Virus record (IMG/VR): IMGVR_UViG_3300027668_001658
Location: 1-25,405 of that record
From: a virus
Direction: 5' to 3' (one strand)
DNA length: 25,405 bases
Below the pieces are notes generated by a model. It searched no databases. It was given only the letters and a program-made list of their open reading frames with translations, and was not told the origin of the DNA. The position numbers and the translations under genes were made by a program. This document shows positions 10,050-22,368 of the stretch, one piece after another; positions within the stretch are counted from its first letter, which is position 1; each line of letters begins with the position of its first letter.

Positions 10050-10346
10050 TTATTTATTTTCGTAAAGGGATTGAGCTAATTCTTGCCCGAATGTCTCTGA
10101 TCTAAAGTATCGTGCGAAGAATTTAAATTCGTTTCCAAATTTTACATGGAGTTGTGAGTGATGAAAGAAGCATAGCGGGATAGCGTTTCTATCGTCGGCT
10201 CTCATCCCCATGCCGCGCCCACCGACCCAAGGCTTCATTAGATGGTGCGCTTGGGTATGTCCATTGCATGAAACGTCTTTGACACAGCATTCAAGATCAG
10301 CAACAAACTCAAGGTGCCTTCTATCCTTAACTCTATTTTTTTTCAT
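10050..10346 (-). CDS. DUF968/Ref-like HNH nuclease
   Basis: 98-residue protein with the HNH-type zinc-finger nuclease pattern of DUF968: a Cys pair (Cys20/21 and Cys27), AHHL with His34/His35, a Gly/Arg-rich loop (GGRGMGMRADD), IPLC (Cys59), FFHH (62-63) and QLH (His67). The family includes phage P1 Ref and relatives that nick or cut DNA at recombination intermediates. Nuclease activity itself is inferred. It overlaps the cytidylyltransferase gene by 14 bases and sits beside the SSB/ERF/exonuclease set, consistent with a recombination role. Confidence 0.82.
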   Translation of the reverse strand: MKKNRVKDRRHLEFVADLECCVKDVSCNGHTQAHHLMKPWVGGRGMGMRADDRNAIPLCFFHHSQLHVKFGNEFKFFARYFRSETFGQELAQSLYENK

Positions 10347-10752
10347 TTTTTATAACTCTTCTTCTTAAATCTCTGGTTGAAAACCTATGATTTCTATTAT
10401 TAAAGTATAAATCTACATTTAAAGTGTCACACAAATCTCTGCCAGTAAAATCTTTATCCTTGTACTCAACGCCTAATATTCTTACATCAATTTTGTACAT
10501 TGTTAAAATATCAATTAAATCTTGTTCTGTTGCGTAAACCAGAATTTCATCAACATATTTTATTGCAGATAGCTGAGAATATCGCTCCACTATAGTCTGT
10601 ATAGGGATATTCTTTTTTGACCTATCTAGGCTTGGGTCTATTTGCAAGCCGCAGATTAAATAATCACATTGATCTTTAGCTTCTCTTAACATAGCAATAT
10701 GACCAGCATGAAGAAGATCAAATGCACTAGCTGTAAATCCTACTATAGCCAT
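10333..10752 (-). CDS. Cytidylyltransferase-like nucleotidyltransferase
   Basis: 139-residue enzyme of the HIGH-motif nucleotidyltransferase fold. FDLLHAGH (11-18) is the catalytic HxGH, and HRFSTRDLRRRV near 122-133 matches the second motif (R-x-S-T/S-x-x-R). The length and motif set match glycerol-3-phosphate or related CDP-linkage cytidylyltransferases, which form CDP-activated small molecules from CTP and a phosphorylated substrate. Substrate is not readable here. An AGAGGT site precedes the ATG. In a phage it may supply an activated precursor for capsule or DNA decoration, or rework host envelope metabolism; none of this is shown. Confidence 0.85.
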   Translation of the reverse strand: MAIVGFTASAFDLLHAGHIAMLREAKDQCDYLICGLQIDPSLDRSKKNIPIQTIVERYSQLSAIKYVDEILVYATEQDLIDILTMYKIDVRILGVEYKDKDFTGRDLCDTLNVDLYFNNRNHRFSTRDLRRRVIKNEKK

Positions 10753-10767
10753 TTTTACCTCTTATTA

Positions 10768-10796
10768 AACCGCGCCCACCATAGATAGGCGCGGTT
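10768..10796 (-). other. 9-bp perfect GC-rich hairpin between SSB and transferase genes
   Basis: AACCGCGCC (10768-10776) and GGCGCGGTT (10788-10796) pair perfectly around an 11-base loop. No T-run follows on the minus strand, so it is more likely an attenuator, RNA-stability or processing element than a full terminator. The SSB gene lies upstream and the cytidylyltransferase downstream. Confidence 0.6.
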
Positions 10797-10807
10797 CTAA
10801 TTCTACT

Positions 10808-11224
10808 TTAGAAAGGAATGTCGTCTTTGTCAAAGCTATTTGTCTGAGGCTGTTGGTTGGCTGATTGCTGGTTGCTAGAACCAAAATGCTGACTGCCCCC
10901 ATCATTGACACTCATAGATATGCCTAGGTAGTTCTGTCCAGATGCCGCAACATTATTCCAAGCCCCAAATTTATAACCCTGTCCATCAATAGTAACTTTC
11001 CCACTAACATCTGGAGATTTTGGGTTCTGCTTTTTTTCTGGAGGGTTGTAATAAACTCTACCAGCGGATACGGCAAGCTCATAAATCTCTTCACCCTTCT
11101 GTGACTGCGCTTTTAAAAGAGAGCAGTATCTAGTGGCACCATTAACGGTAATCGTACCTTTACTCATTATCTGGCAATTTCCATCAACAAAAAACGCGCC
11201 TTTTAACTCTTCGTTATCACTCAT
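10808..11224 (-). CDS. Single-stranded DNA-binding (SSB-like) protein
   Basis: 138-residue protein with an OB-like beta-rich core (GAFFVDGNCQIMSKGTITV, later YKFGAWNNVAASGQNYLGISM), a Gln/Asn/Ser-rich linker (about 113-130) and the acidic tip DKDDIPF, the hallmark of bacterial and phage SSB C-termini that recruit partner enzymes. It lies next to ERF and exonuclease genes, as SSBs often do in phage recombination modules. Its core also resembles DUF736-like proteins, so the exact family is open, but the tip is strong evidence. The start overlaps the upstream stop by 4 bases (ATGA). Confidence 0.8.
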   Translation of the reverse strand: MSDNEELKGAFFVDGNCQIMSKGTITVNGATRYCSLLKAQSQKGEEIYELAVSAGRVYYNPPEKKQNPKSPDVSGKVTIDGQGYKFGAWNNVAASGQNYLGISMSVNDGGSQHFGSSNQQSANQQPQTNSFDKDDIPF

Positions 11225-11505
11225 AATATAGCCTCATTGTTAGTTACTAACCTGTATTGATAACCTCTAGCTGGAATGCCAGTGTTTGAAGGTATCTTTT
11301 CTTTAAATAAAACTTCACCTGAAAGTGGCAAGTCGTATTTCTTTCTTTTGTCATAATGCCTCAGCGCCCTAATTCCTGCGCTAATTGTTGGCTCACCATA
11401 GTAACAATCATATCTATGGTTAATTGCTTCTTGCAAACCCCAGAACGTCCAAGGGCGTCCATCTGACATTAACTCTGCTATTGCGTCTATAAGACCTTTT
11501 TTCAT
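11221..11505 (-). CDS. Winged-helix-like small protein
   Basis: 94 residues from the ATG at 11505 (MKKGLIDAIAELMSDGRPWTF), which lies 6 bases after GAGG; ATGs at 11517 and 11508 are alternatives, the first overlapping the ERF stop. The pattern helix, DGRPWTFWGLQEAI, helix, TISAGIRALRHYDK, then beta wing (PLSGEVLFKEKI, GYQYRL) suggests a winged helix. No DNA-binding proof. Coupled to ERF and SSB, so it may act in recombination or replication control. Confidence 0.6.
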   Translation of the reverse strand: MKKGLIDAIAELMSDGRPWTFWGLQEAINHRYDCYYGEPTISAGIRALRHYDKRKKYDLPLSGEVLFKEKIPSNTGIPARGYQYRLVTNNEAIL

Positions 11506-11513
11506 CATGCACC

Positions 11514-12200
11514 TCATTTCTCATATAGTTTAATTAGCTGGCCAAAGCTGGTTTTAATGGCGCTTCCATCGGGACTGTTACTCAGTGCCGTTTTAATATA
11601 CCCCTGTGTTTCCGAGTTATATATATTTTGACAAGCCTCTGATTCTGGATTGGCTAAATGCTTTCTGCACTGTCCAAGAAATTCACTCTCTCCAGTACAC
11701 GCCTCTATCAAAGTTCCTTGCAACATAATTTTGTACAAGGCGTTTGTATCCGTTGTCGGTACGCTGACACTTTCCTTTTTAATAGCTTTTGGTGCGGCAT
11801 AAACCTTGTCTGTTTTCTTGCGGTCAATCATAGCGGTTTCAGCATCATCATCTTTCTGGTGTCCAATTCCGCAAGCCATAGAAAGGCTATATCTTTTTGC
11901 GTAGGTAAGGGCAGAGCCAAATCCTTGGGGGTCGCGCTTATCTGCTGGAACGGTAAACTGTCCAGTGCGTAGCTCACCACCATGTCCATAGAATACAGTC
12001 TCAACACAAACCCCAATATCAGAAGGGTGGCATATCTGCTGGAACATAACACCATTGTCATTTAATGGCGGTTTAACAGTAGTTATCACTTCTTCAAGGG
12101 TAGCGTAGTCACTTTTAAAATAAGGGTTCTTGCCATCTTTGCTGGCGTGGGTTATTGCTTTTTGCGCCTCTATGAGAGCGGCTATCAATTTATCGTTCAT
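11514..12200 (-). CDS. erf: ERF-family single-strand annealing protein
   Basis: 228-residue protein of the ERF superfamily. The N-terminal half carries the family's signature: KNPYFKSDYATLEEVI, NDNGVMFQQI, PQGFGSALTYAKRYSLSMACGI and DDDAE. ERF proteins form rings that anneal complementary single strands, promoting phage recombination and circularisation. The C-terminal part (from ~130) is Lys/Ser/Thr-rich and unconserved-looking, with several Cys. It overlaps the downstream winged-helix gene by 4 bases and precedes SSB; upstream lies the exonuclease. This is a textbook annealing set. Confidence 0.9.
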   Translation of the reverse strand: MNDKLIAALIEAQKAITHASKDGKNPYFKSDYATLEEVITTVKPPLNDNGVMFQQICHPSDIGVCVETVFYGHGGELRTGQFTVPADKRDPQGFGSALTYAKRYSLSMACGIGHQKDDDAETAMIDRKKTDKVYAAPKAIKKESVSVPTTDTNALYKIMLQGTLIEACTGESEFLGQCRKHLANPESEACQNIYNSETQGYIKTALSNSPDGSAIKTSFGQLIKLYEK

Positions 12201-12393
12201 TATTTAAATCCTTTATTTTTTGAGTTAAAACTTCGTTTTTTATGGCCAATATAATTTTTCTCTCAACGGTAGATCTCGCGTTTATTTCGCTTTTAGAATA
12301 AAACCCTGAATCGTCACCTTTAATTTCTAAATCCATTAGCTGTATAGATTGTCTAATCACCTCTACTTCTTGTTCTGTAAAATAAAATTTCAT
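12190..12393 (-). CDS. Small hypothetical protein
   Basis: 67-residue helical, charged protein (MKFYFTEQEVEVIRQSIQLM...KIKDLNNER), not recognised. It sits between exonuclease and ERF genes with a 10-base overlap into ERF, and GGAG stands 10 bases before its ATG. Phage recombination operons often carry such accessory proteins, but no specific role can be assigned. Confidence 0.68.
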   Translation of the reverse strand: MKFYFTEQEVEVIRQSIQLMDLEIKGDDSGFYSKSEINARSTVERKIILAIKNEVLTQKIKDLNNER

Positions 12394-12396
12394 TCT

Positions 12397-13173
12397 TTAA
12401 ATTCTCCATAGTTTTCTAGCGGCAACTCTTTCTCCATCAGACCAGCGCCAATCATCAAGGTCAGGAATCATTAAACTGGCTACCTCCTCAATGCTGTCCG
12501 AGTAACTTAGCAGTCGCATCATATTTGTAGCGGCCTGTCTTACAACAACCATATGAGCATCAACATTCTCAACAGGCATCACAACTACCTTAGAAGCCGT
12601 CTTGGTAGCATGTACATAGTCAACAATAGGGATGCAGTTCTCAGCGGTGGCGTAAATAGAAAGCTGTCTACAGGTTGCCGTAGGCACTTTAGTAGGTAAG
12701 CGACCAACTGTTTTTATATCTCGCACAACTCCGTCATATAGAAGATCAAGGTATCCAATAATAGGAATTGGCAACTCTTCAAATTCTAGTTTTATTTTCT
12801 TCTGAGAGGCTAGGGGTTTACCTAGAGATCTAAAGTGTGGAATTGCAGGGGTAAGGTAACGAGAAAGGTTATCTCTCTCAGATTCGGCTCTGGTGCTGTT
12901 AACTGGTATTCTATCGCTAATAGCGCCTTTATGCTCTTCGTCAAAATAATTTTGCGCCCAAGCTATTATTTGAGCATCACTTACATCAGGCTCCTCTATA
13001 GAGATGGTTAACGCTTTATCTACAGCGGTGCCTCTCCACATAGCAGGAATGCCAAACCTATCTCTGAAGCCAGAGACATGGAGTATCCACCGTTGGGGGT
13101 TGGTTATAAATTCGTTTATTGAGCTTGCGCTCAAGTGTCCTACATTGTGTTTTTCAAATGGGTTATTGCTCAT
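12397..13173 (-). CDS. PD-(D/E)XK exonuclease (Cas4/RecB-like)
   Basis: 258 residues with the nuclease core: LSASSINEF helix (14-22), a W-R-G-x3-D element (46-52), GYLDLLYDG with Asp143, VVRDIKTVG with Asp152-x-Lys154, and a QLSIYA helix that supplies the late Gln-Y motif (QxxxY). This is the order in PD-(D/E)XK RecB/Cas4-type and phage exonucleases. Its single Cys does not show the Cas4 Fe-S cluster. As the promoter-proximal gene of the minus operon, it pairs with ERF and SSB as an alternative to lambda Exo/Bet. Confidence 0.85.
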   Translation of the reverse strand: MSNNPFEKHNVGHLSASSINEFITNPQRWILHVSGFRDRFGIPAMWRGTAVDKALTISIEEPDVSDAQIIAWAQNYFDEEHKGAISDRIPVNSTRAESERDNLSRYLTPAIPHFRSLGKPLASQKKIKLEFEELPIPIIGYLDLLYDGVVRDIKTVGRLPTKVPTATCRQLSIYATAENCIPIVDYVHATKTASKVVVMPVENVDAHMVVVRQAATNMMRLLSYSDSIEEVASLMIPDLDDWRWSDGERVAARKLWRI

Positions 13174-13205
13174 ACATCAGGCACCTTGTTTTTGTTTGTG
13201 GGCTA

Positions 13206-13234
13206 ATTATGGGACAAATTGGGTTGATATGCAA
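13206..13234 (-). promoter_or_regulatory. Early minus-strand promoter
   Basis: Minus strand TTGCAT (13234-13229), 17-base spacer, CATAAT (13211-13206), 33 bases before the exonuclease ATG; AAGGTG is the ribosome site. Its -35 abuts the plus-strand -35. Confidence 0.6.
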
Positions 13235-13252
13235 GCCGTTTCTTGATACCAT
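13224..13252 (+). promoter_or_regulatory. Early plus-strand promoter
   Basis: TTGATA (13224-13229), 17-base spacer, TACCAT (13247-13252), about 22 bases before the ATG of the Cro-like gene. Overlaps the minus-strand promoter, so RNA polymerase can serve only one at a time. Confidence 0.55.
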
Positions 13253-13273
13253 GCATTAACTAAAGGCGTTACT

Positions 13274-13480
13274 ATGAAACTATCAGCTTGGCTAAAAGAA
13301 AATAAAATGACTCAAAAGCAGTTTTTAGAAATTGCCGCTAATTCTCATTCTGCTAACTTTAGTTATCACGCTTTGGTAAAATGGTGTAGTGGACAAAGAA
13401 TCCCTAGACCAGAAGATATGAAAGTTATTCATAAAGCCACTGATGGAAATGTTTCTCCAAACGACTTTTATCTCTTGTAA
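13274..13480 (+). CDS. Cro-like helix-turn-helix regulator
   Basis: 68-residue single-domain protein (MKLSAWLKENKMTQKQFLEIA...). An HTH is visible from KMTQKQFLEIAANSH to ALVKWCSGQRIPRPEDM, the size and layout of Cro-type regulators. AAAGG lies 7 bases before the ATG. It is the first gene of the plus-strand replication unit and is transcribed from the divergent promoter pair, so it is well placed to control that pair, in the manner of lambda Cro. No CI-like partner was seen in this window. Confidence 0.82.
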   Translation: MKLSAWLKENKMTQKQFLEIAANSHSANFSYHALVKWCSGQRIPRPEDMKVIHKATDGNVSPNDFYLL

Positions 13481-13494
13481 TTCTCTAGCGCATA

Positions 13495-13507
13495 GCCCAT
13501 TATGGGC
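13495..13507. promoter_or_regulatory. Perfect 13-bp dyad just before replication gene
   Basis: GCCCAT-T-ATGGGC ends 2 bases before the ATG at 13510. It replaces any clear ribosome site, and a related ATTATGGG occurs at 13206-13213. It may be a protein binding site that regulates expression of the replication gene. Confidence 0.4.
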
Positions 13508-13509
13508 AG

Positions 13510-13920
13510 ATGAGTACAGACGCAATAAATTGGGTTAGGTTATTACCTTGCCCCACCCCAACCACAAAGCTAGTTCTTTTTATGCTTGCAAACTATGCGA
13601 GAAAGGGAACTCATAAGTGCTACCCATCTGAAAAACACCTTGCAGAAATATGCGGAGTATCCGATAGATCAGTGCGTAGGTGCATCGCTTCTCTTGAAGA
13701 GCTTGAGTATATTACAGTTCAAAAAAGATTGGGAACAACCAACCTATATAAGTTAGGCATGGACACCAGAGTCCACCCCCCTGCGGACACCAGTGGCCAC
13801 CCTACTCAGGCCACCAGTGTCCACCCCCCTAGGACACCAGTGTCCTCCAATACATTACCTATACATATTATAAACCCCCCACAAACAAGAAGGAGAACAA
13901 AAAATGACCTTGCTGGATGA
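13510..13920 (+). CDS. Winged-helix replication initiator, lambda O-like
   Basis: 136-residue protein. Residues 1-85 carry a winged helix (HTH_36 type): KLVLFMLANYARKG, CYPSEKHLAEICGVSDRSVRRCIASLEELEYI, then the wing LGTTNLYKL. The C-terminal part is Pro/Thr/His-rich and low complexity. That stretch coincides with four palindromic DNA iterons, so the DNA sequence, not the protein, may be under selection there. In lambda the O protein binds iterons within its own gene. The gene is followed by a primase-helicase (17-base overlap). Lambda O is longer, so the helicase-loading part may be reduced or absent. Confidence 0.78.
   Translation: MSTDAINWVRLLPCPTPTTKLVLFMLANYARKGTHKCYPSEKHLAEICGVSDRSVRRCIASLEELEYITVQKRLGTTNLYKLGMDTRVHPPADTSGHPTQATSVHPPRTPVSSNTLPIHIINPPQTRRRTKNDLAG
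13761..13845. repeat. Four palindromic iterons inside replication gene
   Basis: Four copies of the 14-base dyad GGACACCAGTGTCC at 13761-13774, 13785-13798, 13809-13822 and 13832-13845, each with at most one mismatch (the fourth is exact). Spacing is 24, 24 and 23 bases, close to two helix turns and slightly more, with conserved C-rich linkers (ACCCCCCT). Layout and location are as in lambda-type origins. Confidence 0.88.
13846..13880. other. AT-rich candidate unwinding element of origin
   Basis: Directly 3' of the fourth iteron, 13849-13875 is almost only A and T with a few C. Together with the iterons (13761-13880) it resembles a replication origin where the duplex opens next to initiator binding sites. 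Not proven by sequence. Confidence 0.55.
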
Positions 13921-15616
13921 AGCGTTTGAAAAGCATGGCCTTAAAATAGGCCACTTAGATGAAGGGAACCACAAAATAAAATGTCCAGAGTGCCAACCAC
14001 CTCACGACTCACATGATAGGCCAATGTCTGTAGAAATATCTCACGATAAGGTTGTGTTCTTTTGTCACCACTGCGAAAACAAGGGAGGAGTAATGGAGCA
14101 AAGCGCATTAACTGGCACACAAAAAAGAACAGTTCCTCAGAGAAAACCTTTCACACCTAACACCGCAAGCACCTCAACTTTCTTAGATGATTATTTTGAG
14201 AAGAGGGGCATTTCAAAAGAGACCTACGAAGCCTTTAAGGTGTTTTCTGAAAATGATGAGTGGATAGGCTTTCCTTACAATGGAGAGTCAGGACAGTGCG
14301 ACAACATAAAATACAGGCATAAAGATAAGAGATTCAAGCAAAGCAAAGACCCAGTGAAATCTTTATATAATTACAAAGCGGTGGCTGAATCAAATGTGGC
14401 AATTTTTGTAGAGGGCGAAATGGATGCCTTGAGCGTTCACGAATGCGGGTTTACTTGCGTGACTACTTTGCCAGATGGTGCGCCAGCTAAAACCTCCTAC
14501 AAGGAAAATGACAAGAGGTTTCAGTGCTTGCAAACCCATCCACTAAAAGCAAATAAGATTGTTTTATTTTGTGATGCTGATGGTGCTGGTGACAATTTAA
14601 AGAAGGAGCTGATGCATAGATATGGAAAAGTAAAGTGCTGGTATGTGGTTCCTCCAGAAGATTGCAAAGACGCTAACGATGTTCTTATAAAGCATGGCAA
14701 GGAATATTTGCACAACCTGATAACTAATGCGCGGCCTTGTCCAGTTGATGGGCTTTATACGGTAGGCACTTATTACAATGAGGTGATGGACTTATACAGA
14801 GGCAATTACGATAAGCCTGTAAATGTTGGGTACGCAAATCTTGATAAAATTTACAAGGTTATGAAGGGAACATTCCACGTTTGGACAGGTATTCCGAACC
14901 ACGGCAAGAGTACATTTTTAGACCAGTGCTTGATACAGCTTGCAAAAAACCATGATTGGAAATTTGTAATGTTTTCTCCAGAGCATTCCACAAAAATGCA
15001 TATCAGGCGGTTATTGCAAATGCTTACTGGCAAACCTTTTGACCAAGGATTTAATGGGCGAATGACAGAGGAGGAGGCAACCGAAGGGATGCGTTGGATA
15101 CAAAAGCATTTTTTCTTTATAGAAACTAGGGAGCATATCCCTAGCGTGGATAAGATTCTTGAGCTTGCCAAGGTGAGCATACAAAAGTACGGATGCAATG
15201 GCATTGTTATTGACCCTTATAACGAGGTTGACGCAAGTAGAAAGGGTAGCTATAGGGAAGACGAGCATATCCGAGATTTTATTAGCAAGTGCAAGCGGTT
15301 TTGTAAGATGCATGATATTACAACGTGGGTTGTTGCCCATCCTACCAAGCTACAGAAAGAGAACAACGGATACCAAGCGCCCAGCGCATACGACATTAGT
15401 GGCGCGGCTCACTGGCATAACCAAGCTGATGCGGTGGTAGTAGTTCATAGAGATTTTGACAATAACAGTATTCAAGTGATAACGAGGAAGATTAGAGAGC
15501 AAGGAATGTACGGACAGATAGGCGAGGCTACATTTAATTTTGACTTTGCCAGTAGGACGTTTGTAGAGCCTCCTAACGAGGAATATGGATATGGAGGGCG
15601 TGGTAATGGCCGCTAG
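13904..15616 (+). CDS. Primase-helicase, T7 gp4/Twinkle-like
   Basis: 570-residue bifunctional replication protein. A zinc ribbon has CPEC (27-30) and CHHC (54-57). A TOPRIM primase domain shows VEGEMDALS (about 169-177) and FCDADGAGDN (about 222-231). A RecA-like helicase domain has Walker A GIPNHGKST (about 328-336), ending with a hydrophobic strand carrying an acidic residue (GIVIDPYNEVD) and WVVAHPTK. The domain order matches phage T7 gp4 and mitochondrial Twinkle, which unwind DNA and lay down primers at the fork. AAGGAG stands 8 bases before the ATG. It overlaps the initiator gene by 17 bases. Confidence 0.92.
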   Translation: MTLLDEAFEKHGLKIGHLDEGNHKIKCPECQPPHDSHDRPMSVEISHDKVVFFCHHCENKGGVMEQSALTGTQKRTVPQRKPFTPNTASTSTFLDDYFEKRGISKETYEAFKVFSENDEWIGFPYNGESGQCDNIKYRHKDKRFKQSKDPVKSLYNYKAVAESNVAIFVEGEMDALSVHECGFTCVTTLPDGAPAKTSYKENDKRFQCLQTHPLKANKIVLFCDADGAGDNLKKELMHRYGKVKCWYVVPPEDCKDANDVLIKHGKEYLHNLITNARPCPVDGLYTVGTYYNEVMDLYRGNYDKPVNVGYANLDKIYKVMKGTFHVWTGIPNHGKSTFLDQCLIQLAKNHDWKFVMFSPEHSTKMHIRRLLQMLTGKPFDQGFNGRMTEEEATEGMRWIQKHFFFIETREHIPSVDKILELAKVSIQKYGCNGIVIDPYNEVDASRKGSYREDEHIRDFISKCKRFCKMHDITTWVVAHPTKLQKENNGYQAPSAYDISGAAHWHNQADAVVVVHRDFDNNSIQVITRKIREQGMYGQIGEATFNFDFASRTFVEPPNEEYGYGGRGNGR

Positions 15617-15941
15617 TTCAAAAGGTGAAGAGGCGCTTTGCATATTGCTTAGGCACTACAAAATACCTTATCACAGAGAGTTTAGGTTTCACGATATAAG
15701 AAAGTGGCGGTTTGACTTTGTGATAGGGGACTTTCCTTCAATGCTAAAAATTGCGATTGAGGTTGAGGGGGGTGTCTATGCTAATGGGCGGCATACAAGA
15801 GGGTCGGGGTATTCTGCTGATCTGATTAAGTACAACACCGCAATGATGGGTGGGTGGCGAGTCTTAAGATATACAACCAGCCAGATAAGCGAAAACGTGA
15901 TACATGATATTAAATACTTAATAAAAACGGAGAGAAAATAA
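15606..15941 (+). CDS. Vsr/DUF559-like endonuclease-fold protein
   Basis: 111 residues from the ATG at 15606; GGAGG stands 8 bases upstream, so the in-frame ATG at 15585 is rejected. The core RKWRFDFVIGD...IAIEVEGGVY...GRHTRGSGYSADLIKYN...GWRVLRYTTSQI matches the DUF559/Vsr-type PD-(D/E)XK fold: acidic residue after the first strand (Phe-Asp), E-x-E, and conserved YN/GWRVLR. Family members repair mismatches or act as nicking nucleases. It overlaps the primase stop by 11 bases, so it is part of the replication transcript, perhaps for resolving or restarting forks. Confidence 0.8.
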   Translation: MAASSKGEEALCILLRHYKIPYHREFRFHDIRKWRFDFVIGDFPSMLKIAIEVEGGVYANGRHTRGSGYSADLIKYNTAMMGGWRVLRYTTSQISENVIHDIKYLIKTERK

Positions 15942-16189
15942 TGAAAAAAATGAAAAAGACGGAAAAAGAATTATCAAGGTTAGATGCCCTTTCAACAAAT
16001 GTTATCAGGTTGATGCGAGAGCATGGAGTAAGCCAGAGCGATATTTCTAGGGCTACAGACCTATGCCAACCACTTATCAGCAGAACCTTGTCTGGATGCA
16101 ACCCAAGAGTTACGACTGTGCAGACTTTAGCTGATTACTTTGATGTAAGTATGGATGAACTGCTAAGGAGAAAACGACGTGAATGGTGA
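15941..16189 (+). CDS. XRE-type helix-turn-helix regulator
   Basis: 82 residues with a Lys-rich N-terminal arm (MKKMKKTEKEL) followed by an HTH: VIRLMREHGVSQSDISRATDLCQPLISRTLSGCNPRVTTVQTLADYFDVSMDELL. The arrangement fits SinR/XRE single-domain regulators. ATG overlaps the upstream stop as TAATG. It is co-transcribed with primase genes and could repress early promoters later in infection; targets are unknown. Confidence 0.86.
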   Translation: MKKMKKTEKELSRLDALSTNVIRLMREHGVSQSDISRATDLCQPLISRTLSGCNPRVTTVQTLADYFDVSMDELLRRKRREW

Positions 16190-16535
16190 AAACAATTCTT
16201 ATACACAAAACCTAAGGTCTGACCCTCTTGATAAATGCATTGAAGTTTGGGAGGACGCTATTGCTAACTATGAGGCGGCTCAAATTAGATATATTGAGGT
16301 TGAATCTAGCTTTAAAGCGTGGGAGGCCGCTATCAAGATGGCGCATATGAGAAATAAGGCATCGGGGGTTATGGCAGAGGGGCTAGTGAGAACCCATAAC
16401 GATTGGGAGGGAAGGTATCTTGAGGCTCAAACTTTATCGGTTAGGGCTGAGACAGCCAAAAGGATATTAAGAATATCAGAGGCCAAATGGGAAACGGAAA
16501 GATCACGACAGGTAAGTCTAAGAAATTTAAAGTAG
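16179..16535 (+). CDS. Coiled-coil hypothetical protein (GTG start)
   Basis: 118 residues starting at GTG 16179 (AAGGAG 8 bases upstream), overlapping the regulator stop. The chain is highly helical, Ala/Glu/Arg-rich and probably a coiled coil (EVWEDAIANYEAAQIRYIEV... and RAETAKRILRISEAKWE). Similar small helical proteins follow primase genes in other phages, but I cannot name a function. It ends the plus-strand unit, just before a gene-free repeat-bearing region. Confidence 0.7.
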   Translation: MNGENNSYTQNLRSDPLDKCIEVWEDAIANYEAAQIRYIEVESSFKAWEAAIKMAHMRNKASGVMAEGLVRTHNDWEGRYLEAQTLSVRAETAKRILRISEAKWETERSRQVSLRNLK

Positions 16536-16545
16536 ACAAAAAACC

Positions 16546-16676
16546 ATTTTAAAATGCGCTCCAAAAACCAAAAAACTTTTTAAACGAAAAAGAGTTGATC
16601 AAATTTTTATAGGACTAGCGAATAATTTAAAATGTTGCCGAAAAAAGCAAAAAACTTTTTAAGCGAAAAAGAGTTG
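16546..16676. repeat. Direct repeat A, two ~52-bp copies
   Basis: Copies at 16546-16597 and 16624-16676 share a 29-base core (16569-16597 and 16648-16676) with one mismatch, CAAAAAACTTTTTAA followed by a variable base, then CGAAAAAGAGTTG. The upstream part TTTAAAATG is also conserved. One base is inserted between copies. Confidence 0.8.
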
Positions 16677-16843
16677 CGTTTTTTTTAGTTGATGGCTGAA
16701 TAAATAAAAAAATGGCTGAAACTTTTGAAAACCTAAAGTAAAATCACGCTACTCTACAGCCCTTTAACTGCGGGGCTTTCAGGGGGTGACATTTTATTTT
16801 CATTTTTGAATGGGCTTGAATTAGTCCAATAAAAACAACTTAC

Positions 16844-16977
16844 TTTTTTTGACTGGTTTTTAAGGCTTTAGAAATTTACAATTTTTTTGGAGGTCAAACT
16901 TAGGTCTAAATAATTAAGTAATTTTTTTGACGCTGTTTTAAGGGTCTCAGAAATTTATAAAATATTTTAGGGTCTAA
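16844..16977. repeat. Imperfect direct repeat B, two copies
   Basis: Copies at about 16844-16909 and 16922-16977 share the order TTTTTTTGAC, a GTTTTTAAGG-like run, AGAAATTTA, and GGTCTAA. Divergence is greater than in repeat A. The two may form part of one array of binding sites or RNA elements. Confidence 0.6.
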
Positions 16978-17002
16978 TTGTGCGTTTAAAAAAGAAGAGA
17001 AA

Positions 17003-17034
17003 AAACCCCACTTAGTAGTCAGCTAGTGGGGTTT
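17003..17034. terminator. Bidirectional rho-independent terminator
   Basis: AAACCCCACT (17003-17012) pairs perfectly with AGTGGGGTTT (17025-17034), a 10-bp stem with 12-base loop. T-rich tails follow on both strands (TTTGTTTTT on plus, TTTTTTCTC on minus). It separates the plus-strand replication unit from the minus-strand cyclotransferase/amidoligase unit. Confidence 0.85.
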
Positions 17035-17038
17035 GTTT

Positions 17039-17470
17039 TTATTGCTGGTTTAAATAACTATCGGTAACAGCATCTTTGAGCTTTCTGTTGTCTAGCGAGA
17101 AATCATAATATCCTGTAGCAATTCCGTCAAGGTAGCAGTTGGAGGGTGGAGATATCCTATCTTGGTTTCGCATAATGTAAATCATAACCAATCCATGCTC
17201 TGTCTCAATAAACTTTTTAACGTACAGGTTAGGGTACCCTTCGTATCTATCAAGGCTCTTTTCACAATCTTTTGTTATCTTCCACAATCCTAGTGGAACA
17301 GAACTTCCATCTGTAGATACCTCTACATCGGCAACCCCTCTAAATTTTAGCGCGTGTCCCTTCAGCGTATAGCTTTCTACAGGCGTAGCGTTCTTGCATC
17401 TAAACTCCATCTGGTCTTTGTTAAGGTTAGAGCCATAAGCCCCATATAAGTATTCAGTTATTGTATTCAT
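17039..17470 (-). CDS. Gamma-glutamylcyclotransferase-like (AIG2/GGCT) protein
   Basis: 143-residue enzyme fold of the GGCT-like family. YGSNL (12-16) forms the substrate-binding loop, and LDRYEGYP carries the catalytic acidic residue Glu77. The family cyclises gamma-glutamyl amides to release 5-oxoproline, i.e. cleaves gamma-glutamyl linkages. There is no signal peptide; the enzyme should be cytosolic. It lies 36 bases downstream of an amidoligase gene on the same strand. Ligase plus cyclotransferase pairs are described in phages (Iyer and colleagues on amidoligases), which suggests that one makes and the other removes an amide. AAAGGA precedes the ATG. Confidence 0.88.
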   Translation of the reverse strand: MNTITEYLYGAYGSNLNKDQMEFRCKNATPVESYTLKGHALKFRGVADVEVSTDGSSVPLGLWKITKDCEKSLDRYEGYPNLYVKKFIETEHGLVMIYIMRNQDRISPPSNCYLDGIATGYYDFSLDNRKLKDAVTDSYLNQQ

Positions 17471-17505
17471 CTTGATGTTTCCTTTTTGGGTTGTTTAATT
17501 TGGTT

Positions 17506-18519
17506 TTAAGAAAGCTCTTCTTGGCGCTCTCTCAGGTAATCTTGCACTTGGGTACTCACCCCTTGGTATAAGCCAGAATCTACAACGCCTGTAGCTCTTG
17601 CTAGTGGGCGGCTAGTGTTAGGCATGGTGTAGCACTCAAAACGCTCAAGAAAGCTGTTGGCTCTGGCCTCAGTAAACACACCCTCGGCAGTGTAATAATC
17701 ATTTAACTCAGGGTTAGTTATTACTGTTGCGCTTTCACCTACAGTAAGGTTCCACGCTTGCAGGTTTCTATTCCAAACCATAGAGCCGTTAGCGTTCTCA
17801 ACAGCATTTCTAATGGCAGAGTAGGCGCGTTTTGTGGGTGGGCGCTTGCCTGTACCGCTGGCCGCTACTGCACAGCTAGTTTCAACAAATTGCATTAAAA
17901 AGCTCAACCAGTTAACAATTTTCTTAAACTCAGTAGTTCCGCTATGCTGGCGAAACTCAATAGAGCCTCTACTGGCTATGTTAGTTAGGTTTACTTTGTA
18001 GTAACGCTCTGCGGCTCTAGCCGCGTTAGGCTTACACGTTGCGCGTTTAACAGCGTTCTTTACGCTTTCAGTGCTGGCACACCAGCGAGGGCTACCTCTG
18101 CGAGAGCGAGGCATACAAAGATCAATTTGCTCTTCGTGGTTTGAGTACCGCTCATAGGTAGTTTTGATTTCATTAATGTTCATTTCACGGCAATCTAAAT
18201 GAACGTGCAACCCGCAACTTCTGTTAACAGTAACGCCCTCAACAGAGTTGAGCGCCTCAATAACTTTCTCAAGCTCTCTGACACCCTCAACACCGTTAAG
18301 AATAGGGCTAACCAACTCGCCAGCATGGCCGCGAACACCGTTTAGAGATCCATCATATACAACTTTCCAGTAGCTAGTTGTTTGGTGAGTGTAGCCAGCA
18401 TAAACACATTCAACACCCTCAAGGCTGTTTATAACTTGAGCAACTTGCCTAGGGCAAGCGCCAACAAACTCAACTTCAATTCCGAAACTCTTGTTGCTAA
18501 TTACTGGTAAATTTAACAT
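17506..18519 (-). CDS. Amidoligase (COOH-NH2 ligase, glutamine-synthetase fold)
   Basis: 337 residues from the ATG at 18519 (MLNLPVISNKSFGIEVEF); AAAGG stands upstream, so the longer in-frame extension to 18609 is rejected. Motifs: GIEVEF strand, YDGSLNGVRGHAGELVSP, CGLHVHLD, and KVNL-x-GSIEFRQHSGT near 210-230 make the glutamine-synthetase-like active site that forms amide bonds from ATP, a carboxylate and an amine. In the amidoligase_2 family, the substrate is unknown; peptide tags or small-molecule amides have been proposed. Arg- and Ala-rich middle and C-terminal regions are unusual. Paired with the cyclotransferase. Confidence 0.88.
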   Translation of the reverse strand: MLNLPVISNKSFGIEVEFVGACPRQVAQVINSLEGVECVYAGYTHQTTSYWKVVYDGSLNGVRGHAGELVSPILNGVEGVRELEKVIEALNSVEGVTVNRSCGLHVHLDCREMNINEIKTTYERYSNHEEQIDLCMPRSRRGSPRWCASTESVKNAVKRATCKPNAARAAERYYKVNLTNIASRGSIEFRQHSGTTEFKKIVNWLSFLMQFVETSCAVAASGTGKRPPTKRAYSAIRNAVENANGSMVWNRNLQAWNLTVGESATVITNPELNDYYTAEGVFTEARANSFLERFECYTMPNTSRPLARATGVVDSGLYQGVSTQVQDYLRERQEELS

Positions 18520-18565: not shown

Positions 18566-18593
18566 ATTATACAGAGTTTCCTATGGTAAACAA
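18566..18593 (-). promoter_or_regulatory. Promoter for amidoligase unit
   Basis: Minus strand TTGTTT (18593-18588), 16-base spacer, TATAAT (18571-18566), about 47 bases before the ATG at 18519. Confidence 0.6.
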
Positions 18594-18695: not shown

Positions 18696-19274
18696 ATGAC
18701 TACAATTCACGCCAAAGATATGACAGAAGTTCCCGTCGACGATTTAATTCCTTATGATAGAAACCCTAATATTCATTCAAATGAACAAATAATTCAGCTT
18801 GCAAATAGCATCCGAGAGTGGGGTTTTACAGTCCCAATATTGATTGATGAAAATCAAGTTGTCCTTGCTGGGCATGGTCGACTGTTCGCGGCTAAATCTT
18901 TAAGTATGGAAACGGTTCCATGTATCACGGCAAGAGGTTGGTCAGACACTCAGAAAAAGGCGTACGTCATTGCGGACAATAAGTTGTCAGAGGGTAGCGA
19001 GTGGGATAGCTCTCTGTATTTTTCAGAGCTTAAAGAGATAAATAGTTCAGGATTCAGTCTTGATTTAATTGGTTTTGATGAAAGCATTTCCTTAGATTTT
19101 GAGCCAAATTTACAGCCGACAACTTCGTTTGCAGATGTTAATGAGGGTGATATAAATAAGGCCGAAACAGCAATGTCAGATAACATGGATAGGCTAACTG
19201 GAGATCGTTCAGAAAAAGGGACTGAGGTTATGTGTCCATATTGTGCAGAGAGCTTTATTTTTGACGGCATTTAA
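18696..19274 (+). CDS. ParB/sulfiredoxin-domain protein with C-terminal CxxC
   Basis: 192 residues from the ATG at 18696 (MTTIHAKDMTEVPVDDLIPYDRNPN), the first credible start; the 52-codon upstream extension is hydrophobic and runs into the control region. The N-terminal ParB nuclease-like domain has DLIPYDRNPN, SIREWGFTVPILID, and AGHGRLFAAKSL. The middle is acidic and linker-like. The end is VMCPYCAESFIFDG, a short zinc-finger-like tip. Phage ParB domains of this kind often precede a DNA methyltransferase domain in one chain; here none is attached. First gene of the right-hand plus operon. Confidence 0.85.
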   Translation: MTTIHAKDMTEVPVDDLIPYDRNPNIHSNEQIIQLANSIREWGFTVPILIDENQVVLAGHGRLFAAKSLSMETVPCITARGWSDTQKKAYVIADNKLSEGSEWDSSLYFSELKEINSSGFSLDLIGFDESISLDFEPNLQPTTSFADVNEGDINKAETAMSDNMDRLTGDRSEKGTEVMCPYCAESFIFDGI

Positions 19275-19551
19275 TAGAGAAAACCAGACTAATGCGTTAT
19301 CTAAAGTGCTAGAAAAGCATGATTGGGTATTTGCTAAAACAATGCCTAAAAACCCTCATTTCTATACGCGCAAAAGAGATTGGAGCGACCAAGAATTGTT
19401 TGTAAAATGCGCTCACAAAATAAGGGAGCTAGGAAAATCCGAGATGTTTCGGGGTTGGCCTTACGTTTGTTTTAACTTTAATGGATATAAATATTGGGTT
19501 ATGGATAAGAATCCAAGCGATGCGGTAATTATAAACAGGAAAGTGTTATGA
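19261..19551 (+). CDS. Small hypothetical protein
   Basis: 96 residues from TTG 19261, 8 bases after AGAGAG; GTG 19243 is an alternative. WVFAKTMPKNPHFYTRKRDW, then FNFNGYKYWVMDKN and IINRKVL recall a recurrent small phage family with a PHxYTxR-x-W block and GYKYW, whose function I do not know. It lies between ParB and glycosyltransferase-like genes and overlaps both, so it belongs to the same operon. Lys/Arg/aromatic richness would be compatible with nucleic-acid binding. Confidence 0.65.
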   Translation: MTAFNRENQTNALSKVLEKHDWVFAKTMPKNPHFYTRKRDWSDQELFVKCAHKIRELGKSEMFRGWPYVCFNFNGYKYWVMDKNPSDAVIINRKVL

Positions 19552-20111
19552 GATATATTTTGCGGACTTGTGCTGGTAGAGAGCATTATGCTGATTATGT
19601 AAAGAAATGCATTCCATCAGTAGAGGTGTGCTTTGACCAAAAACTGGGTGCAATGAGTAACTTTTTGCAGTCTCTTGAGATGGCAGGTGATGATGCCGTT
19701 GTTAATTTAGAGGATGATATTTGGATAACTCATAATTTTGAGGAAAAGCTAAGGGCAGTTGTATCTGGCAATCCAAACTCAGTAATTCAATTTTTTAGCA
19801 TGAGAAAAGCTGATCGGGATATTGGCAGTAGGTGGGACTCTGGGAAATCTTACCTGATGGCACAATGCACTTACCTACCTAAAAAAGTATCGCGTGGCAT
19901 ATTAGCATTCAGCAAAAAGTACGATAATATTGAACACAAATCGCACCCTTTAGATTCAATGGTTGCTGATTACTTGAGCAAAGCAAGAATGAAATACTGG
20001 ATTCATTGTCCAAGTTTAGTTGACCACAGAGTTGGTAAATCAATGATAGACCCAAGAAGAGCAAGCACAAACAGACAATCGTTTACTTTTAGGGATGGAA
20101 TATATGGCTGA
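19548..20111 (+). CDS. Glycosyltransferase-like protein (GT-A fold suspected)
   Basis: 187 residues. MRYILRTCAGREHYADYVKKCIPS is a Rossmann-like start. AVVNLEDDIWI (about 50-60) places Glu55-Asp56-Asp57 after a hydrophobic strand, as in the metal-binding DxD of GT-A enzymes or the LEDD of GT25. YWIHCPSLVDHRVGKS near the end resembles the C-terminal Pro-x-Leu-x-x-His motif of phage glycosyltransferases. Acceptors in such enzymes may be modified DNA bases or surface sugar; which applies here is unknown. AGGA 7 bases before the ATG. Beside an oxygenase-like gene. Confidence 0.65.
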   Translation: MRYILRTCAGREHYADYVKKCIPSVEVCFDQKLGAMSNFLQSLEMAGDDAVVNLEDDIWITHNFEEKLRAVVSGNPNSVIQFFSMRKADRDIGSRWDSGKSYLMAQCTYLPKKVSRGILAFSKKYDNIEHKSHPLDSMVADYLSKARMKYWIHCPSLVDHRVGKSMIDPRRASTNRQSFTFRDGIYG

Positions 20112-20619
20112 TGTAAAGTGGGATGCCCCTTTAACAAAAGAGCAAAGAGCAAATCCAGTTGTCTATTCTGCGAAAATTGATCTTCCTAGCATGATAAAGA
20201 TACCTACTGACTCAGAGCTTGAAATAATATTTAAAACAAAAGGCTATAAACTGCAAACGTGGGGGAGGTCAAAAGATGAGCGCGGAAAAGAAATAAAAAC
20301 AAATGACCCGCATTGGATTGGAGTTAGAAATGGCACTCCTTTGCATACTGATAAGGCTTATCCTAGATATTCTCATCATTTAAAGGTAAGGGTTGATGAT
20401 GGAATAGTTGTAAGAGGAGTTGATAAAACCGAGCTTCTTTTAGAGAGAGGTGTTTTTTATATTTTGGATACTCACAGCCCCCATCAAGTTCTGCACAAAA
20501 AGGAAAGTGCTGTATGGAATGTTGCAGTATCTATTGATTCCCACGTTCTACTTGACCCTATGGAGTGCATAAAGAAAAGCATCCAATTTGCGGCATCCAC
20601 TAAGATAACTAAAAGATGA
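20104..20619 (+). CDS. Possible 2-oxoglutarate/Fe(II) oxygenase-fold protein
   Basis: 171 residues from the ATG at 20104 (MADVKWDAPL), 9 bases after AGGG; the ATG at 20095 abuts that site. GTPLHTD gives His81-x-Asp83, and DTHSPHQV gives a distal His (127, or 124), the two halves of a facial-triad iron site on a beta-rich jelly-roll. The 2OG-binding Arg is not evident at its usual position; Lys132/133 or a non-2OG cupin role are alternatives. If an oxygenase, it could hydroxylate a base or amino acid ahead of glycosyltransfer. Overlaps both neighbours. Confidence 0.5.
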   Translation: MADVKWDAPLTKEQRANPVVYSAKIDLPSMIKIPTDSELEIIFKTKGYKLQTWGRSKDERGKEIKTNDPHWIGVRNGTPLHTDKAYPRYSHHLKVRVDDGIVVRGVDKTELLLERGVFYILDTHSPHQVLHKKESAVWNVAVSIDSHVLLDPMECIKKSIQFAASTKITKR

Positions 20620-21794
20620 AAATATTTCTTAAAGATAACGTATTTGATGAAGCTATAGAAAGAATAACTTTCTTGTTCCGAGAGTTTGATGAAGTGGTAG
20701 TCAGCTTTAGCGGGGGCAAAGATAGCACCGTAACGCTTGAAATGGCGCTGTTAGTTGCTGAAAAAGAGGGCAAATTACCCCTTACAGTGATGATGCTTGA
20801 CCAAGAGGCCGAGTGGCAAGCTGTTGTTGATTATGTAAAAAGGGTTATGTATCGCGACGAAGTGACCCCTCACTGGCTACAGGTGCCTATCAAATTATTT
20901 AATGCGACCACTATGGATTACCCTTGGTTGAACTGTTGGGATTTAAATGAAGAACACATGAGGGAGAAAGACCCTATAAGCATCAAAGAAAATACTTACG
21001 GTACTGATCGCTTTTATAATATGTTTCCCAAGTATCTGGCAAAGCATTACAAGGGTAAGTCAGTTGCTTTACTAGGGGGTGTCAGAGCAGAGGAAAGCCC
21101 AAACAGACGAGCAGGTTTGACTAATGGGGCTACCTATAAAGACATAACCTATGGCAAGGTCTACGATGAGAAGCAAGGCCATTATGTTTTCTATCCTTTG
21201 TATGATTGGAGCTATACCGATATTTGGAAAGCAATTCACGACCACAGTTGGGATTACTGCAAAATATATGACGAGTTTTATAGGTATGGGATAGCCCCAA
21301 TAAAAATGCGGGTGAGCAACCTTCACCATGAAACGGCTGTAGATCAGTTATTTTATTTGCATGAGCTAGAGGGTGACACTTGGAATGCGTTAACTAAAAG
21401 ACTTAAAGGCATTAATCAAACTAAGCATATGAAAAAAAATGAAATGTTTAGGGCTAATGAGTTGCCGTTTATGTTTAAAGATTGGAGGGAGTACAGAGAT
21501 CACCTTTGCGATAATCTAATACAAGATGATGGCATAAGGAAAAAGCTAGAGAAAAAGCATTTATGGATGGATGGAAAGTTTAGTGATATGAATAACATCC
21601 ATGAGATGTACAAAACCCAGATACTAGGGATACTTGCCAATGATTTTGAGTTTGCAAAAATAGGTAACTTTCTTGGTAGACCAGAAGTGATTAACTTTTT
21701 AAAGTTCAAGCGAGGGGTGGAAATTAACTGGAATCGTCCAGAGAGAGACCTTAGGTTCATAAAGCCACATCAGAGAGGCACTACCCATGAGTGA
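20616..21794 (+). CDS. IbrA-like PAPS-reductase family protein (DUF3440)
   Basis: 392 residues. VSFSGGKDSTV (PP-loop Ser32-Ser37), MMLDQEAEW, GGVRAEES and YPLYDWSYTDIW follow the PAPS-reductase/DUF3440 pattern. The C-terminal third is helical and lacks the Cys clusters of the 6731 protein, so an Fe-S role is unlikely. E. coli IbrA, of the same family, is encoded next to the ParB-like IbrB and controls expression of Eib genes; the biochemical role is unsettled. Here the same two-gene order occurs. Start overlaps the upstream stop by 4 bases. Confidence 0.88.
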   Translation: MKIFLKDNVFDEAIERITFLFREFDEVVVSFSGGKDSTVTLEMALLVAEKEGKLPLTVMMLDQEAEWQAVVDYVKRVMYRDEVTPHWLQVPIKLFNATTMDYPWLNCWDLNEEHMREKDPISIKENTYGTDRFYNMFPKYLAKHYKGKSVALLGGVRAEESPNRRAGLTNGATYKDITYGKVYDEKQGHYVFYPLYDWSYTDIWKAIHDHSWDYCKIYDEFYRYGIAPIKMRVSNLHHETAVDQLFYLHELEGDTWNALTKRLKGINQTKHMKKNEMFRANELPFMFKDWREYRDHLCDNLIQDDGIRKKLEKKHLWMDGKFSDMNNIHEMYKTQILGILANDFEFAKIGNFLGRPEVINFLKFKRGVEINWNRPERDLRFIKPHQRGTTHE

Positions 21795-22368
21795 TATACC
21801 AAACCAACCAATTAGCGATGTTTTATGGGTGTCTGTTGATGATGTAGAGCCAAACGACTACAACCCTAACTCAGTTGCAGGGCAAGAGATGAAATTGCTA
21901 CATACCTCAATCAAGCACGATGGTTATACACAGCCTATAGTTACAATCTACGATGAAGAAAAAAAGAAGTATGTGATTGTTGACGGCTTCCACAGATACT
22001 TTACCTGTAAGAACAACAAGGATATATTTGACACCACTCAAGGTAGGGTTCCAATAGTTGTAATCAAGAAAGATATTAATGAAAGGATGGCCGCTACAGT
22101 TAGGCACAATAGGGCAAGGGGACAGCACTCAGTAAGTGGCATGTCCAGTATGGTATTCTCTATGCTTGATAACGGTTGGAAGGATGAAGAGGTATGTAAT
22201 CACTTAGGGATGGAACCTGATGAGTTGCTTAGGTTAAAGCATATCACTGGATTCTCTAAGCTCTTTGCAGATACAGAATACAACAAAGCATGGGTAACAA
22301 AACACCAGATACGAATTAAGAAAGAATTTAAAGATTCGGAAAAGATAGAAAATAACGGTAACGGTTAA
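21787..22368 (+). CDS. IbrB-like ParB-domain protein
   Basis: 193 residues with a ParB nuclease-like domain: VSVDDVEPNDYNPN, IKHDGYTQPIVTI, VDGFHRYFT, then ATVRHNRARGQHS and a C-terminal helical part with HLGMEPDELLRL. The pattern is that of the IbrB family and many phage ParB-like genes located just upstream of terminase. It overlaps the IbrA-like gene by 8 bases with AGAGG as ribosome site. The pair probably acts together; whether on DNA is unknown. It directly precedes TerS, so a link to packaging or transcription of late genes is conceivable. Confidence 0.86.
   Translation: MSDIPNQPISDVLWVSVDDVEPNDYNPNSVAGQEMKLLHTSIKHDGYTQPIVTIYDEEKKKYVIVDGFHRYFTCKNNKDIFDTTQGRVPIVVIKKDINERMAATVRHNRARGQHSVSGMSSMVFSMLDNGWKDEEVCNHLGMEPDELLRLKHITGFSKLFADTEYNKAWVTKHQIRIKKEFKDSEKIENNGNG

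Follow-up and report, generated by a model that had tools for sequence, protein, structure and literature searches.

A phage amidoligase/gamma-glutamyl cyclotransferase gene pair with an exchangeable C-terminal cassette in its ligase

The locus analyzed here raises the question of what a phage could do with an amidoligase and a gamma-glutamyl cyclotransferase (GGCT) encoded side by side, and which part of the pair might set its target. Phage annotations have included modules of this kind for years, and the excerpted literature offers a guess at the cell wall as their function. The window, as the stretch of DNA analyzed is called hereafter, comprises the 25405 bases of an IMG/VR virus record and encodes a tail fibre, a holin, an M15 peptidase, Erf, a primase/helicase, a terminase and a portal, and no near-DNA matches to it were found in the phage collection searched.

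Gene organization and predicted enzymes

Two ORFs on the minus strand were identified as an amidoligase (17506..18519, 337 aa; Amidoligase_2 with a GS fold, a predicted ATP-dependent carboxylate-amine ligase by Pfam, PHROGs and model) and an AIG2/GGACT-type GGCT (17039..17470, 143 aa), and their Pfam and PHROGs matches agree with the identities given in an earlier note on this DNA. They are separated by an intergenic gap of 35 bp (17471..17505, minus strand), where an AAGGA before the GGCT resembles, by eye, a ribosome-binding site. The ligase start, MLNLP, is common to 10 of the 12 aligned close relatives, and the ORF is extendable to 18609. Both flanking genes, one at 16179-16535 and a ParB-like gene with its ATG at 18696, lie on the plus strand, so the pair indeed runs opposite to its neighbours, as had been claimed. 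Directly 3′ of the GGCT lies an intrinsic-terminator-like hairpin followed by a U run (17003..17034, minus strand; −15.1 kcal/mol, z −3.66, with 0 of 200 shuffles as good, for a stretch chosen by eye), which is absent from the list of a simple terminator scan. The claim of an own promoter stood in part: a perfect TATAAT, resembling a −10 box, was found in the gene-strand sequence at 18566..18571 (minus strand), 46 nt 5′ of the ligase ATG, while the promoter scan listed no two-hexamer promoter 5′ of the ligase.

The ligase matched PF12224 (Amidoligase_2) with an E of 3.3e-34 and 119.3 bits, against a curated cut-off of 22, and PHROGs family 2443 (amidoligase) with an E of 3e-42. Its AlphaFold model (pLDDT 92.2) aligned with glutamine synthetases at a best Z of 12.8 and an rmsd of 3.4 Å over 205 residues, and a Foldseek search with the model retrieved YbdK, GS, PafA and Dop (E 6.5e-6 to 1e-3, TM-scores of only about 0.3-0.4), with GmaS also among the structural matches. 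The GS-type ligase fold is therefore common, by structure matches, to the window ligase, the pupylation enzymes PafA and Dop, and YbdK, but a profile of 67 ligase sequences found no PDB sequence at E up to 1, and the single ligase sequence gave no credible PDB match (one chain at E 1.6). Viral fold matches included Catovirus and Hyperionvirus, which makes giant-virus members possible. The N-terminal ligase region (residues 1-212; 17884..18519, minus strand) carries the conserved core residues E15, E17, W51, D56, E68, G103, H105, H107, N177, E188 and R190. In a comparison of 144 distinct ligases longer than 230 aa, every one of these was retained in 141-144 of 143-144 sequences: E68 in 144/144, H105 and H107 in 143/144, E15, E17 and E188 in 142/144, and R190 in 141/143. 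The conserved acidic, His and Arg residues presumably serve metal and ATP, as assigned in the Amidoligase_2 family. In the predicted model, a GS-type fold with intact active-site residues was confirmed, and ATP-dependent amide formation is predicted for the window ligase.

The GGCT matched PF06094 (GGACT; E 1.2e-7, 32.8 bits, curated cut-off 22.8) and PHROGs 2520 (gamma-glutamyl cyclotransferase; E 2.3e-27). The catalytic Glu earlier ascribed to it corresponds to the putative Glu77, kept in 116 of the 117 sequences with a residue there (124 distinct GGCT ORFs). A sequence match to human GGCT, though weak (E 0.043 and above), places Glu77 opposite the Q or A of chains 3cry and 2rbh, which are catalytic-Glu mutants. 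With the profile, a YGSN loop (residues 12-15) and the putative catalytic Glu, the protein carries the marks of the AIG2-like family, and release of 5-oxoproline from gamma-glutamyl amines is predicted. In-frame TAG codons were seen within the GGCT matches of four records (G032, G034, G068 and G071), and these phages possibly recode TAG.

Linkage and genomic setting of the pair

Viral and genome loci were retrieved by ligase patterns only, with the best 80 of each taken, and one locus reached via its GGCT (L092) brought the viral loci to 81. In 58 of the 81 viral loci (at most 350 bp away in 54 of the 58) and 71 of the 80 genome loci (all within about 410 bp), a GGCT on the ligase strand started no more than 1.5 kb downstream, counts that are not independent because many loci are close relatives; in eight of the 23 viral loci with no downstream GGCT, the ligase ends within 70 bp of the contig end. 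The pairing was confirmed as not due to chance. A match to the phrog_2520 profile was present somewhere in 67 of 80 viral records, and also in 8 of 14 well-known cellular genomes used as a control, so this family is broad. In the phage collection (50,697 records), the window ligase matched 143 records and the window GGCT 44 by tblastn.

Relatives were also chosen by their terminase, independently of the pair. Among the best 80 such loci, both genes were present in 13, neither in 66 and the ligase only in one, which is cut by the contig end, in the stretch examined. The 32 loci with at least 7 kb upstream contained both genes in 10 cases, neither in 22 and a single gene in none (Fisher p 1.6e-8 for joint presence, with relatedness ignored), and three of the 10 (L187, L189 and L193) are records also reached via the ligase. 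The pair is therefore an accessory module that is gained and lost whole. The earlier note had seen in it a pair of a kind predicted to make and remove amide-linked products, and had named failure to co-occur in related phages among what would speak against this; co-occurrence was found instead, and the joint gain and loss together with the conserved active-site residues bear the pair out as a functional unit.

Not every amidoligase has a GGCT nearby, and in some loci a GATase-II-like gene takes its place or accompanies it. Class-II glutamine-amidotransferase-like genes, recognized by eye from their MCG start, were found near the amidoligase in 11 loci (L048, L057, L059, L060, L062, L063, L065, L069, L070, L071 and L081), nine of which have no GGCT within 1.5 kb downstream; the gene lies downstream on the amidoligase strand in 10 and on the other strand in L062. 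By profile, all three annotated phage regions chosen by GGCT matches had the adjacent pair, and none of the four chosen by ligase matches did; an annotated GGCT lies further on from the ligase in Bacillus 035JT001 (about 1.1 kb) and Escherichia ev_rybdy8 (4.4 kb). Two contigs of 123 and 245 kb (L045 and L055), with runs of small similar genes, encode amidoligases that lack an adjacent GGCT, and a GGCT-family match occurs far off in each record.

Wherever a terminase match was present in the flanks (44 of 81 viral and 53 of 80 genome loci), the pair lay upstream of it. Of these viral loci, 30 have the two on opposite strands and 14 have them on one strand, while in the genome loci they share a strand in 52 of 53, the exception (L101) being of the window's type. 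Among neighbours of at least 60 aa, the commonest family was ParB-like, found in 39 loci, with 67 of 69 copies on the strand other than that of the pair. In the window, a gene with a PAPS-reductase domain (PF01507, weak DUF3440) overlaps a ParB-like gene at 20616-22368, and a second ParB-like gene lies nearby at 18696-19274; this arrangement resembles IbrA/IbrB. On genome contigs, the amidoligases of L115 and L117-L125, which come from Clostridium, Bacillus, Ureibacillus and further genera, are 97-100% identical among the pairs listed. A terminase follows these amidoligases at a distance of about 2 kb, and the pattern points to recent wide transfer by prophages.

The C-terminal part of the ligase is an exchanged cassette in the window's clade

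A comparison of 13 close ligases, one of them identical to that of the window, revealed a conserved core and a C-terminal part of two types, A and B. The exchangeable part covers about residues 216-315 (17575..17874, minus strand), a window block that is unalignable to the relative G007 between aligned stretches, and it is followed 3′ by a C-terminal tail helix (17506..17574, minus strand) that is better conserved than the cassette where the types differ. At the DNA level, L004 and L010 are 99.13% identical over 3004 bp, unalignable over 280 bp and then 99.25% identical over 2133 bp, with the 280-bp block being the sole unalignable one between bases 156 and 5572 of L004. The window and G007 are 96.9% identical over 10763-17574, fail to align over 17575-17874 and are then 85% identical; besides the cassette, two further differences between them lie at 10352-10762 and 19505-20609. 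Compared part by part, the window and L007 have 97.2% identity in the ligase core, 19.3% in the cassette and 96.5% in the GGCT, whereas L007 and L009 share 83.5% in the core, 93.1% in the cassette (type B) and 70.4% in the GGCT. A further, partial replacement was observed between L004 and L006 (core 98.6%, cassette 61.4%, GGCT 97.7%).

The high identity of cassette B in L007 and L009 despite their divergent cores indicates recombination between lineages and not slow drift. In the window's clade, the last ~100 residues or so of the ligase are thus shown to be an allelic, exchanged cassette. Chimeric assembly was considered as a source of the cassette types; it is made unlikely by the occurrence of the exchange in two lineages, whose copies of the shared cassette are about 7% different. 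Results vary beyond this clade: among five further pairs of similar loci, an unalignable C-terminal block was found in one (L038/L040), before a 92% identical GGCT, and none was found in L023/L025, L029/L031, L046/L047 and L239/L254, while the Firmicutes ligase pairs listed show roughly equal conservation of their C-terminal and N-terminal parts.

In the predicted models, types A and B have the same order of elements, helix-strand-strand-strand-helix. Type A matched only PF01373 in Pfam, at an E of 0.062 and below its cut-off, and nothing in PHROGs; type B matched no Pfam family, only phrog_16115 (E 0.22) in PHROGs and nothing in the phage collection. When each cassette was used as a single-sequence query, the ORFs of the window and of the first 180 loci yielded amidoligases only, and the structure searches used whole-protein models. 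No neighbour gene was found to track the cassette type, as L003 (type A) lacks the gene at 19548 and L010 (type B) has it. No published statement of an exchangeable ligase cassette was found in the open-access literature, and both this cassette and the literature precedent for the pair go beyond the content of the earlier note.

On these grounds, we give about an even chance to the reading that the pair is a mobile two-gene module for reversible gamma-glutamyl amides, with constant donor chemistry and an acceptor set by the cassette; what we infer is the chemistry in both directions, what the cassette does and the purpose served. The GS-fold ligase would use ATP to activate a carboxylate, most probably the one at the gamma position of glutamate or a glutamyl residue, and couple it to an amine, and the GGCT would take off the glutamyl group as 5-oxoproline, freeing the amine. 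The donor side would be constant, as the ligase core and GGCT differ little between close phages, and the cassette would set the acceptor. This would probably be an amine of the host or the phage that differs from one host or strain to another, such as a polyamine, a lysine of a protein or a precursor of the envelope. Since the changing part adjoins the catalytic core and the GGCT is constant between close pairs, a fixed donor chemistry with a cassette that picks the acceptor is the simplest account, and a GGCT that reads the constant glutamyl part would be expected to stay unchanged. The cassette could instead change oligomerisation or assembly, or allow escape from a host inhibitor. We tentatively suggest, as a rather doubtful extension, that phages trade the cassette as an acceptor-recognition unit, much as tail-fibre tips or the target-recognition domains of restriction enzymes are exchanged. 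These ligases would then form a family of programmable gamma-glutamyl modifiers for an arms race between host and phage or among phages, and the GGCT would be their shared eraser. The clean cassette pairs, with 99% identical DNA around the replaced block of ~280 bp, are natural domain swaps, and the acceptor, and with it the function of the amidoligase/GGCT family, could emerge from a comparison of the two alleles.

Related modules, possible functions and local variation

Amidoligase/GGCT modules in phages have already been published (PMC11318856, PMC11253131, PMC11945000, PMC7824862, PMC10580990, PMC6209634 and PMC5498523), and the excerpts of these papers credit the cell-wall hypothesis to Iyer and colleagues (2009 in most, 2002 in PMC5498523) and Hardies 2013. 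As in the window, the 'peptidoglycan modification cassette' of phiEco32, RIO-1 and PSA-HP1 combines an amidoligase and a GGCT in tailed phages, but cassettes of that type have five (phage U17) to seven (PSA-HP1) genes and add an ATP-grasp, a GATase or aminohydrolase and a second ligase, according to excerpts of PMC5498523 and PMC11945000. The unit in the window consists instead of two genes, is followed by a terminator-like hairpin of its own and has a C-terminal cassette that can be exchanged. No ATP-grasp ligase or glutamine amidotransferase was matched by Pfam in the 40 window ORFs scanned, the record being a 25.4-kb fragment, and the pair was therefore not filed as a larger phiEco32/RIO-1-type cassette; it is filed as a two-gene variant of the known phage module with an exchangeable ligase domain. 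Terrisporobacter phage TPDSL_ph1 and the C. clostridioforme prophages, where the genes are named as PHROGs 2443 and 2520, also have the ligase shortly before the GGCT in excerpts of PMC11253131 and PMC11318856. TPDSL_ph1 differs in carrying two amidoligases on the strand of their neighbours, whereas the window has one, against its neighbours.

The published idea, put forward for phiEco32, RIO-1-like phages and Clostridia prophages in the excerpts concerned, implies that the pair remodels peptide linkages or precursors of peptidoglycan so that competing phages fail to adsorb or inject. An accessory unit with an exchangeable domain might well fit such a host-specific surface target, but the ATP-grasp and GATase genes of the fuller cassettes are unrecognised in the window, and the excerpted accounts report no tested effect. 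The glutamate of the stem peptide has an acylated alpha-amine, so by general chemistry the GGCT should not act on intact stems, and we regard superinfection exclusion by this route as possible but unlikely. Nearly as plausible, and still on the unlikely side, is a role in small-molecule metabolism, in which gamma-glutamyl amines or peptides of polyamine or glutathione-like pools would be made and recycled, redirecting host nitrogen or redox. GS-like folds do include small-molecule enzymes, among them the structural matches GmaS and YbdK; exchange of a single domain would, however, be unexpected for a conserved small metabolite, and Pfam recognised no polyamine or glutathione gene in the 40 ORFs scanned.

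The position upstream of the terminase, and PafA and Dop among the structural matches, would suit a ligase that, late in infection, attaches glutamate to lysines of a host protein or a structural protein of the phage, with the GGCT trimming it. The opposite strand in the window group nevertheless speaks against simple co-expression with packaging genes, and no third gene with the strand and spread of the pair was found among neighbours of at least 60 aa (viral and phage loci, 40 largest clusters), which leaves tagging of proteins or virions improbable. Least likely is DNA modification or counter-defence, in which the ligase would amidate a modified base or nucleotide together with ParB-like, methyltransferase and PAPS-reductase neighbours. 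ParB-like and PAPS-reductase genes do lie near the pair, methyltransferase genes adjoin it in L117, and ParB-like or methyltransferase-like genes were seen by eye in other Firmicutes loci inspected, but the neighbour genes vary and Pfam found no base-hypermodification enzyme in the same 40 ORFs.

Local variation around the pair was also observed. A cytidylyltransferase-like gene at 10333-10752 has no match in G006, G007, G008, G011 and L010, the five relatives compared whose stretch includes both its neighbour genes. The window and the otherwise near-identical G007 differ in a variable block at 19243-20619, where a 102-aa gene has diverged (51%) and a 187-aa glucosyltransferase-like gene (phrog_854) and a 174-aa gene have no match in G007. 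Between the helicase-side genes and the pair, the intergenic stretches 16563-16677 and 16908-16997 match another site of G007 at 77-78%, and they are possibly a dispersed repeat or regulatory sequence.
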